A stretch of 64,000 bases of DNA from Dokdonella sp. GTDB lineage: Bacteria > Pseudomonadota > Gammaproteobacteria > Xanthomonadales > Rhodanobacteraceae. Below the pieces are notes generated by a model. It did not search any database and was not told the DNA's origin. It was given only the letters and a program-made list of their open reading frames with translations. The DNA lies in NCBI RefSeq assembly GCF_019634815.1, contig NZ_JAHCAP010000019.1, forward strand, positions 1 through 64,000, given 5' to 3'. The position numbers and the translations under genes are program-made. Numbering within the stretch: position 1 is the stretch's first letter; each line of letters opens with the position of its first letter. Shown here one piece after another: positions 35,405 to 39,507 of this stretch.

Positions 35405-36934
35405 CTAGTCGAAGCGGACCAGACTGCGACCGCTCATCTGCGGCGGCTGCGGCAGACCCATCAAGGCCAGCACGGTCGGCGCCAGATCACGCAGCGCGCC
35501 GCGCTCGAGTCGCGCCGCTCGGCCAACATGGACCAGCGGCACCGGGCCCACCGTGTGCTGGGTGTGCGGCACGCCGTTGTCGTCAACCATCTGCTCGAGA
35601 TTGCCGTGGTCGGCACTGATGAGCATCTCGCCACCGGCCGCGCGGATCGCGGCTTCGATGCGACCGAGCGCGGCATCGACCGCTTCGGCCGCGGCAATCG
35701 CCGCGCCTTCGATTCCGGTATGCCCGACCATGTCGGGATTGGCGATGTTGCAGACGATGAAGTCGAATTGGCCTGACGCAATCGCCGCGACCAATCGATC
35801 GGTGAGCTCGGGACAGCTCATTTCCGGCTTGAGGTCGTAGGTGGCGACCTTGGGGCTCGGCACGAGGATGCGCTCCTCGCCCGCAAACGGCGCTTCGCGT
35901 CCGCCCGAGAAGAAAAACGTGACATGTGCGTACTTCTCGGTTTCGGCGATGCGCAACTGGCGCAAGCCGAGACCGGCAAGGTATTCACCCAACGTGTTGT
36001 CCATCGATTGCGGCGGGAATGCGATCGCGCTGTCGGCGACCAAACCCTTTTCGTATTCGGTCAAGGTCGCGCAGGCCGACAACTGCGGCACGCGACTGCG
36101 CGCGAAACCGCTGAAATCCGCATCGACGAAGGCATGCGAGATCTCGCGCGCACGATCGGCGCGGAAGTTCATGAACACGATCGCATCGCCGTCGTTGACC
36201 GCGGCACCCCCAGCGATCACGGTCGGTTTGACGAACTCGTCGTTCTCGCCGCGCGCGTAGGCCGCGTCGAGTGCGGCCAGCGCGTCGGCGGCGTGATGAT
36301 CCGCCTGCGCCAGCGCAATCGCCTGCCATGCGAGTTGCACGCGATCCCAGCGCTGATCGCGATCCATCGCGAAGTAACGGCCGGTTACGCTCGCGACCTT
36401 CGCGTTGCCGAGCCGCGCGCACTGCGCGGCAAGGCGTTCGAGCGAGGCGCGCGCACTGCGCGGCGGCGTGTCGCGCCCATCCAGGAAGGCATGCACGGCC
36501 ACGCGCGCCACGCCGCGGTCATGCGCCAGATCGAGCAGGGCGAAAATGTGGTCTTCCTGACTGTGCACGCCACCGGGCGAGAGCAGACCGAACACGTGCA
36601 GGGTGCCCTCGTGACGGCGCGCTGCATCACAGGCGTGCAGCAGCGCGGCGTTGTCGAAGAAGCTGCGATCGGCGATTGCGGCGTCGATGCGGGTGAGGTC
36701 CTGATGGACGATGCGCCCGGCGCCGATGTTCATGTGACCGACTTCGGAGTTGCCCATCTGCCCGTGCGGCAGCCCGACATGTTCGCCGAAGGTATCGATG
36801 AGGGTATGCGGACACTCGCGCAGCAGCCGCCGCCAGTTGGGCAAGTTGGCCAGCGCGATCGCATTGTGCGCGGTCTCCTCGCGATGGCCCCAGCCATCGA
36901 GTATCAGCAGCAGGACGGGTTTGGGTCGGGACAC
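35405..36934 (-). CDS. gpmI: 2,3-bisphosphoglycerate-independent phosphoglycerate mutase
   Basis: Glycolytic enzyme interconverting 3- and 2-phosphoglycerate through a phosphoserine intermediate and two Mn ions. 509 residues from GTG 36934. Signatures: VLLLILDGWG, HGQMGNSEVGHMNIGAG (catalytic Ser), LLSPGGVHSQEDH, HAFLDGRDTPPRSA, FMNFRADRAREIS, EKYAHVTFFFSGGRE, NPDMVGHTG and ISADHGNLEQM. It starts the gpmI-envC-ctpA set. The 550 nt upstream consist mostly of REP elements, so its promoter must lie in or next to the array. Confidence 0.97.
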   Translation of the reverse strand: MSRPKPVLLLILDGWGHREETAHNAIALANLPNWRRLLRECPHTLIDTFGEHVGLPHGQMGNSEVGHMNIGAGRIVHQDLTRIDAAIADRSFFDNAALLHACDAARRHEGTLHVFGLLSPGGVHSQEDHIFALLDLAHDRGVARVAVHAFLDGRDTPPRSARASLERLAAQCARLGNAKVASVTGRYFAMDRDQRWDRVQLAWQAIALAQADHHAADALAALDAAYARGENDEFVKPTVIAGGAAVNDGDAIVFMNFRADRAREISHAFVDADFSGFARSRVPQLSACATLTEYEKGLVADSAIAFPPQSMDNTLGEYLAGLGLRQLRIAETEKYAHVTFFFSGGREAPFAGEERILVPSPKVATYDLKPEMSCPELTDRLVAAIASGQFDFIVCNIANPDMVGHTGIEGAAIAAAEAVDAALGRIEAAIRAAGGEMLISADHGNLEQMVDDNGVPHTQHTVGPVPLVHVGRAARLERGALRDLAPTVLALMGLPQPPQMSGRSLVRFD

Positions 36935-37021
36935 AGGCGAAACCGCGGAAGGGAAAGCACTATCCTAGCCGATGCATCGCGCGCTGACCCTGTCCCGTGC
37001 GCAGGCGCGGCGCGGGCAGCA

Positions 37022-37445
37022 CGGGAGCGGAGCAAGCTCCGCTCTACGATGGTGGTGGTGTGCTCCTGCAGAGCCGAGCTCGCTCGGCTCGGGGTGCTCT
37101 TGTAGATCCGAGCTCGCTCGGCTCGGATGCGCGAAAGCAGCGGAGCAAATGCGAGATCGGAGCAAGCTCCGCTCTACGGGGCGGTGGGTTTTGTAGAGCC
37201 GAGCTCGCTCGGCTTGAGGCGCACGGGAGCGGAGCAAGCTCCGCTCTACGGGAAGGTCGCGACTGCCGTCGCTCCTGCAACAGCGCGCTGCAGGAGGGCC
37301 GGAAGGCCCGACCTGACGAACGGGAGCGGAGCAAGCTCCGCTCTACGATGGTGGTGGTGTGCTCCTGTAGAGCCGAGCTCGCTCGGCTCGGATGCGCGAA
37401 AGCAGCGGAGCAAATGCGAGAGCGGAGCAAGCTCCGCTCTACGGG
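37022..37445. repeat. REP array: nine GTAG palindromes in alternating orientation
   Basis: Nine ~23-nt palindromes of two sequence types. Type A, written GTAGAGCGGAGC-TT-GCTCCGCTC, occurs reversed at 37025-37047, 37155-37177, 37227-37249, 37324-37346 and 37420-37442. Type B, (GTAG)AGCCGAGC-TC-GCTCGGCT, occurs forward at 37068-37090, 37102-37127, 37193-37215 and 37367-37389. Orientation mostly alternates, giving REP doublets. A different palindrome (CTCCTGCA..TGCAGGAG) lies at 37271-37295. Such GTAG-headed REPs are typical of Stenotrophomonas/Xanthomonas genomes and are mobilised by RAYT (TnpA_REP) enzymes; none is encoded here. The array lies between the M1 peptidase 3' end and the gpmI start. 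Confidence 0.92.
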
Positions 37446-37485
37446 ACGCGCTTTTGCTCGAGGCGTTCGCCGCGAAGGGGCAGGC

Positions 37486-39321
37486 TCACTTGCCCGCCAG
37501 CGCCTTCTCGATGCTCACCTGGGTCATCGGGTGATAGCCGGGCTTGGCCTTGGCGTAGACCTCGCGTGCGAAGCGCAGGCCGTCGGGCGTCTTGGCCAGT
37601 TCCTCGTAAATCGGCACCACCAGATAGCGGCGACCGATGCGCGTCATGTACTTGGCCATCTGGGTGCGCGCGGGACGAAAGTCCGAGCGCGCCGCAGCCA
37701 GATACCAGCGGCGCGCAATTTCGGCGTTGGGCGATCCATTGAGGTGCCAGGCCGCATCGAGCGTGGCCAACTGTTGCGCGCTGAGTTTGTCCGGCAGTCC
37801 GTCGAGGAAATACATCCACTCTTGCGTGTTCCAGCGCTTGGCGTCGAGCTTGATCGCGGTGCGCTTGCCTTCCAGCCACTGGCTGCGCGCCTCGGCGATC
37901 GCCTGCAACTGCGGCGAAGTCGGCAGCGGCGCATCGGCGGGCACGCCGCCTTGGTAGATCCACGCCTTGACTTCGTCGAGACTCATCTTGCCCGGATACT
38001 TGTCGAGCAAGTTGGGTTTGAGCCAATCGAGCATCTGCTCGGTAGTGATGCTCCGGAACGCGAAATGCTCGAAATAGCTGCGCAGATAGGCGTCGAAAGC
38101 CTCGCGCCCGAAGCGCGCCTCAAGCGTACGCAGCAGCCATGCGCCCTTGACGTAGGCAAAGTCGGAAGCGGCATCGTCGGCATCGTCGAGATCGGGCACG
38201 AGTCGCTGGGTCGGCGCCGGCGTCGATTTGACCTCGCGCAGCAATTCATCGGCAGCGATGATGAATTCCTCGTCGGCCTGCACCTTGCCGTAGACCGCCT
38301 CGACGATGCGGTTCTCGACATAGCTGGTGAAGCCCTCGTTGAGCCACATGTGGCGCCAGCTTGCATTGGTGACGAGATTGCCCGACCAGGAATGCGCGAG
38401 CTCGTGCGCGACCAGCGACACCAGACTGCGGTCGCCGACCAACACGGTCGGGGTAGCGAAGGTCAGGCGCGGATTTTCCATGCCGCCGAATGGAAAACTC
38501 GGTGGCAGCACGAGGATGTCGTAGCGCTCCCAGCGGTACGGGCCGTAGAGCTTCTCGGTCGTCTCGATCATCTTCTCGGTGTCGGCAAATTCGTAGGCGG
38601 CCTTGGCGACCACCGAGGGCTCGGCATACACCGCGCTGCGCGGCCCGGTTTCGCGCACGGCGAGGTCGCCGACCGCGATTGCGAGCAGATACGAGGGAAT
38701 CGGCTGCTCCATCCTGAAGCTGAAATCACCATCGAGTGGGTGCTTGGCATCGTTGTTCGCGCTCATCACCACGCGCAGCGCCTTGGGCCCGGTCACATGC
38801 GCGCTGTAGGGAAAGCGCACCGCAGGCGTGTCCTGCAGCGGCACCCAACTGCGCGCATGGATCGACTGCGATTGCGAATACATGAACGGCTGCTTCTTGC
38901 CCGCGGTCTGCGCTGGCGTCATCCACTGCAGGCCAGAGGCCTGCGGTGCGGTGTGATAACGGATGCGCACCTTGGGCGCCTGCGCGTCGAGCGCAATGCG
39001 CAGCGCCGAGCCGAGCACCGGATCGCGCGCGGCCAGACTCCACTTGAGTGCATGCGCAGCGCCCTGCGCATCGAGCGCCTCGATGCCTTCGATGGTGAGA
39101 TCGCGCGTATCGAGCACCAACTCGCGCGCCTCGGGATCATGCCAGGCCAGTGCCAGCTCGGCGCTGCCGGCCAACTCACGCTTGTCGAAATCGACCTTGA
39201 GATCCAGCGAAAGCGCAGTCTGCGTGACCTTGGCCGGTTCGGCGTAACTGAAGCGATCGTGTTCGGCGGCCGAGGCTGACATGCACAGGAAGAACGATGC
39301 GGCGAGGAGGCGTTGCAGCAT
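37486..39321 (-). CDS. M1-family metallo-aminopeptidase, exported
   Basis: 611 residues from ATG 39321. Signal peptide MLQRLLAASFFLCMSASAA, so periplasmic or secreted. It has the M1 exopeptidase motif FPFGGMENPRLTFA and the zinc site VAHELAHSWSGN followed by NEGFTSYVE. The overall length, the YSQSQSIHARSWVPLQDTP segment and the C-terminal helical domain ending VSIEKALAGK are those of the leukotriene-A4-hydrolase/aminopeptidase B branch. Probably cleaves N-terminal residues from peptides. Followed by the REP array. Confidence 0.93.
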   Translation of the reverse strand: MLQRLLAASFFLCMSASAAEHDRFSYAEPAKVTQTALSLDLKVDFDKRELAGSAELALAWHDPEARELVLDTRDLTIEGIEALDAQGAAHALKWSLAARDPVLGSALRIALDAQAPKVRIRYHTAPQASGLQWMTPAQTAGKKQPFMYSQSQSIHARSWVPLQDTPAVRFPYSAHVTGPKALRVVMSANNDAKHPLDGDFSFRMEQPIPSYLLAIAVGDLAVRETGPRSAVYAEPSVVAKAAYEFADTEKMIETTEKLYGPYRWERYDILVLPPSFPFGGMENPRLTFATPTVLVGDRSLVSLVAHELAHSWSGNLVTNASWRHMWLNEGFTSYVENRIVEAVYGKVQADEEFIIAADELLREVKSTPAPTQRLVPDLDDADDAASDFAYVKGAWLLRTLEARFGREAFDAYLRSYFEHFAFRSITTEQMLDWLKPNLLDKYPGKMSLDEVKAWIYQGGVPADAPLPTSPQLQAIAEARSQWLEGKRTAIKLDAKRWNTQEWMYFLDGLPDKLSAQQLATLDAAWHLNGSPNAEIARRWYLAAARSDFRPARTQMAKYMTRIGRRYLVVPIYEELAKTPDGLRFAREVYAKAKPGYHPMTQVSIEKALAGK

Positions 39322-39507
39322 GGAAGGTGGTCCCTGAACGGCTTGCGATTGCGTATTGTCGCCGATCCGGCGCCACGCCGCGCCGGATCCACGCGCGCGC
39401 TCGATGCGGACCGGAAATCCGTGTCGAGGCCGTGTCCGGTCAAGCTGTCCGCTCGTGCCGGCCAGCATTCGAAAACGCAAGGCTAACCGATAGGCGAGCG
39501 GCTTGAA

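Follow-up and report, generated by a model that had tools for sequence, protein, structure and literature searches.

A composite array of GTAG-type REP elements with an internal duplication between the M1 peptidase and gpmI genes of a Dokdonella genome

The window analysed here is a stretch of 64,000 nucleotides of Dokdonella sp. DNA (contig NZ_JAHCAP010000019.1 of assembly GCF_019634815.1, positions 1 to 64,000 of the forward strand). The genome to which it belongs, a draft of 3.24 Mb in 60 contigs, is referred to below as G000. Co-directional genes for an M1 peptidase and for the phosphoglycerate mutase gpmI are separated in the window by a 551-bp intergene (36935–37485), most of which is occupied by an array of repetitive extragenic palindromes (REPs); as scored for the window array, these lie outside the coding regions. 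The coordinates of the array, its elements and its neighbours are shown in Table 1.

An initial annotation had described a composite REP array with an internal duplication, and both the anatomy of the elements and the repetition of whole blocks bear this out. The array is a composite BIME, or REPIN-type array, of eleven GTAG-type REPs: five of type A, four of type B and one doublet of a type that we call G. Read on the + strand, with the spacers given in nucleotides, the order is A- 20 B+ 12 B+ 32 A- 15 B+ 13 A- 6 G- 11 G+ 12 A- 20 B+ 32 A-. Taking the 22-mers GTAGAGCGGAGCTTGCTCCGCT and GTAGAGCCGAGCTCGCTCGGCT as references for A and B respectively, all nine copies in the array have at most one mismatch. 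Each is built of a tag, an 8-bp stem and a 2-nt loop, and the tag is GTAG in eight of the nine. Only two palindrome types had been recognised at first; the third, G, present as an inverted doublet, was missed. It follows the pattern GNAG-GA-stem-GAC, and both of its elements in the array have the tag GCAG. The types A and B had also been said to alternate in opposite orientation. Their opposite orientation holds, but strict alternation does not, as B1 and B2 lie head to tail and form the array's exception to the rule. A supposed A with four mismatches on the + strand (37417–37438) was dropped, since it is A5 read on the opposite strand.

Table 1. Elements of the array, with the genes and smaller features around it (positions in the window).
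Feature	Position	Strand	Remarks
gpmI, cofactor-independent phosphoglycerate mutase	35405–36934	-	iPGM_N, Metalloenzyme
TAGGAT, possible gpmI -10 element	36962–36967	-	Between array and gene; by eye
Left block (A1 B1 B2 A2)	37022–37180		
REP A1	37026–37047	-	GTAG + 8-bp stem, loop TT; 0 mismatches to A 22-mer
REP B1	37068–37089	+	Tag GCAG; 1 mismatch
34-bp step (B REP + 12-nt spacer)	37090–37123		Left block only; offsets 299 and 265
REP B2	37102–37123	+	Single stem base altered (GATCC); 1 mismatch
REP A2	37156–37177	-	Single stem base altered; 1 mismatch
REP B3	37193–37214	+	0 mismatches
Hybrid cassette A- G- G+ A-	37228–37346		8 copies, at 6 of 21 scanned G000 loci
REP A3	37228–37249	-	0 mismatches
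G-type REP	37256–37278	-	GCAG-GA, GCGAC/GTCGC stem; similar elements at many loci
G-type REP	37290–37312	+	GCAG-GA, GGGCC/GGCCC stem
Right block (A4 B4 A5)	37321–37445		
REP A4	37325–37346	-	0 mismatches
REP B4	37367–37388	+	0 mismatches
REP A5	37421–37442	-	0 mismatches
M1 peptidase gene	37486–39420	-	Peptidase_M1, Leuk-A4-hydro_C; array starts ~40 bp past stop codon

The sequence between the array and gpmI contains, outside the array, a CGGCTAGGAT motif that by eye is kept in the sister genome and is similar in some other relatives. A scan for consensus sigma-70 promoters found nothing. For the - strand RNA of 36950–37490 the folding energy is -282.1 kcal/mol (z -8.62 relative to 100 shuffles), values that palindrome arrays give anyway. 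Among the candidates considered and set aside were an intrinsic terminator on the strand of the genes (there is none on the - strand, and two on the opposite strand, where 0.4 are expected), a structured RNA family (four Rfam matches, all below the gathering score, the best being a microRNA family at E 0.013) and a + strand open frame (36997–39279), which crosses the array and is antisense to the M1 peptidase gene.

The repeated stretches are as first reported: 37022–37092 recurs at 37321–37391 with one mismatch in 71 bases, and 37111–37180 recurs at 37376–37445 with one mismatch in 70. The matches were judged on their length, a chance model being deemed unnecessary at 70–71 bases. The right block had been interpreted as a copy of the left lacking about 20 bp; local copying is well supported, the missing 20 bp less so. 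The difference between the two offsets is 34 bp, which is the sum of the 18-nt gap between the two stretches on the left (37093–37110) and their 16-nt overlap on the right (37376–37391), and equals one 22-nt B REP with a 12-nt spacer; the boundaries of this step are loosely set, in that it can be placed almost equally well in other 34-bp windows between B1 and B2. These 34 bp may have been gained on the left or lost on the right. Between the two blocks are 140 bp that contain four elements, namely B3, A3 and the G doublet. The blocks differ at three sites (the B1 tag, the B2 stem and the A2 stem), and at each of these the letters of the right block are the common ones. A single crossover between B1 and B2 in their present form would not yield the B of the right block, so the three base changes in the left block probably postdate the copying.

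The duplicated block's 32-nt spacer has two copies, both in this array and identical to each other. With up to three mismatches allowed, no other copy was found in 16 genomes of the genus, and the nearest spacer in the compared loci is 0.88 alike. Spacers were also compared over 20 G000 loci, leaving out those longer than 60 nt, those adjacent to G elements and those between neighbours of the same type (A-A, B-B). Head-to-head spacers are more alike within loci than between them (0.715 vs 0.510; 46 spacers from 17 loci, with none of 2000 label shuffles as high), and so are tag-to-tag spacers (0.684 vs 0.619; 45 spacers from 16 loci, 6 of 2000 shuffles). Without the window array the values are 0.722 vs 0.507 and 0.681 vs 0.615, with 0 of 1000 shuffles each. 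Spacer lengths recur, as they do in BIMEs and REPINs, with 13 nt in 19 of the 46 head-to-head spacers and 15 nt in 12 of the 45 tag-to-tag spacers. Judged from these comparisons, a local duplication within the array is well supported. The initial annotation had gone further and suggested stepwise growth by REP doublets. Stepwise local copying is indicated by the private 32-nt spacer, by the likeness of spacers within loci and by the single A in the gap of the sister genome described below, but the doublet is not the unit, as what was copied is A-B-A.

The same intergene was compared in a sister genome, G004, and in further relatives, including G009 and G010. G004 has 90% DNA identity to G000 over the start of gpmI, and its M1–gpmI gap (L039) is ~180 bp long and contains one perfect A, so that the comparison of copy number proposed at the outset sets eleven REPs here against one in the sister. 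The gaps of G009 and G010 (~0.98 and ~0.93 kb) contain no A or B REP. No outgroup with REPs in the M1–gpmI gap was found; the other genomes looked at have different genes there or longer REP-free gaps, and for this reason outgroups could not fix the direction of change. An identical array in distant relatives would speak against recent growth, as the initial annotation pointed out. None was found among the candidates scored in 30 relatives (for some of these genomes, part of the candidates), and that objection does not arise.

For seven G000 sites with A/B REPs, both flanks found a match in G004. At four of them both genomes have A/B arrays: L018, L023, L032 and the second array of L030, which is separated from its matched left flank by 1.3 kb of unaligned DNA. 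The window site, with its one A in G004, is the fifth, and at the other two G004 is without any A/B REP (L029, compared with L188, and L033, compared with L152, where only G elements are present). The reverse case was also observed with both flanks compared: G004 has a mixed A/B/G array (L156 1231–2688, on contig C6) where G000 has none (L027 4243–4351, on contig C9), and an array of this kind in the sister alone implies loss or gain on both sides. The G000 interval is a REP-free gap of 109 bp, with a mixed array of G000's own ~0.9 kb further on. The arrays of L027 and L156 had been entered as the same array site; this was rejected on comparison, and they were removed from the counts.

Matches on one flank show REPs in both genomes at L024, L025, L034 and the second array of L021, and no REPs in G004 at L020 and the first array of L030. 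Of eleven flank probes made, ten were run against G004. Those for L021, L022, L028 and L031 had no G004 match among the 40 of 252 candidates scored, and L022, L028 and L031 consequently enter no presence/absence count. The L019 probe matched two places in G004, at 74 and 70%; this locus was left out, its left flank (84%) having no A/B REP adjoining and its right flank only a paralogue-like 70% stretch. Locus L026, at the end of G000 contig C31, and L021 (C40:3000-8800) match neighbouring parts of G004 contig C26 (L189), between which there are 132 bp free of REPs. On the G000 side each match adjoins a REP array, and one of them has several kb of C40 beyond it.

The REP families themselves are abundant in G000. 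Among the 16 genomes of the genus, exact copies of A number 63 in G000, 24 in G004 and 6 in G007. Exact B with a TC loop occurs 38 times in G000, 2 in G004, 0 in G007 and 1 in G010, and exact B with a TT loop 10, 24 and 11 times in G000, G004 and G007. The remaining genomes of the genus have no exact A or B copies, and reversed-pattern controls gave 0 in all 16. The G000 counts of A and B thus fall in the range of tens to hundreds. Most of the fetched G000 A/B loci share the same A-/B+ layout and a limited set of spacers; these loci were gathered by their similarity to the window array, with part of the candidates scored, and their copies are not independent. The proportion of TC to TT loops among exact B copies differs between G000 and G004 (38:10 vs 2:24, Fisher p 1.9e-9), as do the loops at the four shared two-flank sites (7 TC and 5 TT in G000 vs 15 TT in G004, p 0.0009), these p-values being descriptive because the copies are related.

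The hybrid cassette in which a G doublet is enclosed by two A elements was sought by regular expression in 21 of the 28 G000 loci, the window included, and in 19 G004 loci. Its eight G000 copies are of the same length and are divided among L018 (three) and the window, L019, L023, L025 and L026 (one each). A form without the G doublet is present at four G000 loci (L024, L025, L026 and L030). By the same expression, neither form was found in the 19 G004 loci. A related form missed by the expression was seen by eye in G004 (L149, C37:1-2000, at 178–964), with the inner G doublet nine times. Elsewhere in G004, L158 (C21:22000-24500) has from 1082 onwards eight G elements in the same orientation, 27–32 nt apart.

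It had been suggested that the genome would hold a cognate RAYT gene. No REP-flanked RAYT was found in G000 among its Pfam Y1_Tnp genes, all candidates being scored. There are two such genes, both on contig C37. Against a cut-off of 80 they score 79.7 and 78.6 bits on NF047646, and the 8 kb fetched with them showed no GTAG REP. In G007 a RAYT lies beside A and B REPs. It scores 119.3 bits on NF047646 (cut-off 80), has the HVH motif and the invariant tyrosine, and matches TnpA-REP 4er8 (E 4.2e-6). G007 has 17 exact copies of A and TT-loop B, every one of them on the RAYT contig between 27.8 and 42.1 kb (~14 kb, the RAYT included), in an assembly that is 86% complete and in 380 contigs; this clustering is like the concentration of REPs near rayt genes described in an excerpt of PMC2817692. 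The RAYT stretch was fetched as L160 (C5:25500-40500), and the last of the 17 REPs lies beyond it. In G004 a different RAYT (137.7 bits) is embedded in a G cluster of 2.1 kb (L148, C11:66500-72000); the matching site in G000, which is assembled (L162, C56:117500-127583), has a 220-bp G cluster and no RAYT. REP-flanked RAYTs are thus present in the relatives G007 and G004, and the cognate RAYT expected of a BIME or REPIN system was not found in G000. Since the literature allows for RAYT loss, this negative result lowers the case for an active REPIN system rather than that for a REP array.

We note clear parallels to known systems. The REPs of Stenotrophomonas maltophilia, or SMAGs (Smal1; GTAG-6 to GTAG-9), likewise have a GTAG tag directly on a perfect GC-rich stem with a short loop. 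In excerpts of PMC2817692 the Smal1 REP (its Table 1) has stem letters identical to those of B, and inverted REP doublets and hybrid clusters are known in that species. The Dokdonella elements differ in their loop, TC or TT in place of CCAT, in their host, and in that a cognate RAYT was not seen in G000. The BIMEs and REPIN clusters of E. coli and P. fluorescens SBW25 also share inverted REPs in series and clusters repeated together with flanking sequence, and arrays of two REP groups have been described (PMC3116915 and PMC8266576, in excerpt); in P. fluorescens, one REPIN is found inserted into or beside another (excerpt of PMC3116915). The window array differs from these clusters in detail only, in that a G doublet is nested among its A and B elements. 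Every feature of the array has a precedent in Stenotrophomonas, Pseudomonas and E. coli, and it is ordinary in kind. We found no literature linking Dokdonella to repetitive extragenic palindromes. The array is of interest as a readable record of REP array change, with one A in the sister, a private duplication, a nested second family and a species-specific loop letter, and the G000/G004 pair could be of use in telling spread by a RAYT apart from simple recombination.

We think it likely that the array, a BIME of GTAG-type REPs, was enlarged in the window lineage by local copying and the arrival of a cassette. The A and B REPs would first have been dispersed by a RAYT transposase related to that of G007, and the common ancestor with the sister would have had one A or a small array in the M1–gpmI gap. 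Recombination or replication slippage between neighbouring REPs would then have enlarged it in the window lineage: A-20-B-32-A would have been copied, a 34-bp step of B and spacer gained or lost, and the A-G-G-A cassette brought in from other arrays. Net growth since the split from the sister is favoured by the comparisons above, and is likely rather than established because arrays differ both ways between G000 and G004. The sister's single A is compatible with collapse, which counts against a fixed direction of change. Indeed, a large array could be ancestral, the sister having lost its REPs by recombination between A copies with no recent growth in G000. The array starts and finishes with an A element, both in one orientation, so that a deletion between them would yield the sister's state; an E. 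coli mutation-accumulation line is described, in an excerpt of PMC8049555, as having lost by deletion five of the six REPIN copies in a tandem cluster; and the arrays present in both genomes, or in the sister only, are in keeping with such losses. However, the private duplicated spacer records at least one copying step inside the array, and at L029/L188 and L033/L152 the sister has no remnant of any A/B REP. We regard this ancestral array as unlikely, albeit deserving of some weight. The copy numbers may themselves be wrong, given a 60-contig draft in which some contigs end in REP arrays, and a misjoining of short reads among similar arrays has been considered; C4, C12, C24 and C31 start or end with REPs that lie within ~100 bases of the contig end. 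Against such an artefact, unique sequence frames the array on both sides, one spacer is private and three base differences separate the blocks, and we hold it to be very improbable.

Another route to an array of this kind is that a RAYT inserted REP doublets again and again in independent events, and the recurrence of head-to-head spacers and A-G-G-A cassettes at several loci means that REP units do travel. As an account of the window array in place of local copying it is nevertheless improbable, because the two 32-nt spacer copies are identical with nothing else within three mismatches in 16 genomes, and because a REP-flanked RAYT was not found in G000. The array lies upstream of the presumed gpmI promoter, and once transcribed it would fold into a series of hairpins where the M1 peptidase mRNA has its 3' end. 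Its position just past the stop codon and the stability of the - strand fold, albeit one that any palindrome array would have, could suggest a selected regulatory element whose hairpins protect that mRNA end or insulate gpmI. The sister manages with one hairpin, though, and neither a terminator-like site on the strand of the genes nor an Rfam match above the gathering score was found, which leaves selection for regulation a poor prospect. The array is most likely a tolerated by-product; as far as the sequence allows, it may act at the 3' end of the M1 mRNA, perhaps by stabilising the RNA mildly.

The TC and TT loops of B resemble the 'orthoswitch' of Nunvar et al. 2013, in which, according to an excerpt of PMC3686654, related strains have different REP letters and still retain older copies; the same paper describes REPs that are abundant in a genome lacking their RAYT, although relatives have the gene. 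The present case differs in that one B loop base is involved (TT to TC), also at arrays in the same gene positions of both species. These loop differences at arrays shared with the sister, together with the A-G-G-A cassettes at several loci, raise the idea that REP arrays in this lineage continue to change genome-wide although no cognate RAYT was found. Dispersed arrays may recombine or undergo gene conversion with one another, and REP families may thereby be homogenised with no transposase of their own, an alternative agent being a TIR-flanked relative of the RAYTs acting in trans; we give this rather little credence. The inverted-repeat flanks of the two C37 Y1_Tnp genes are like those of the TIR-flanked RAYT relatives of Di Nocera et al. 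(excerpt of PMC3733652). By eye these repeats are of a non-REP kind; the genes themselves are closely similar and in tandem (L017, C37:1-8000, at 1–1692), and the flanking inverted repeats contain TTCAAACGGATAATTACTCCG. From 2007 onwards in L017, an antitoxin-like and a PIN-toxin-like gene are seen by eye beside the pair, and in G004 (L146) a similar transposase adjoins an antitoxin-like frame.
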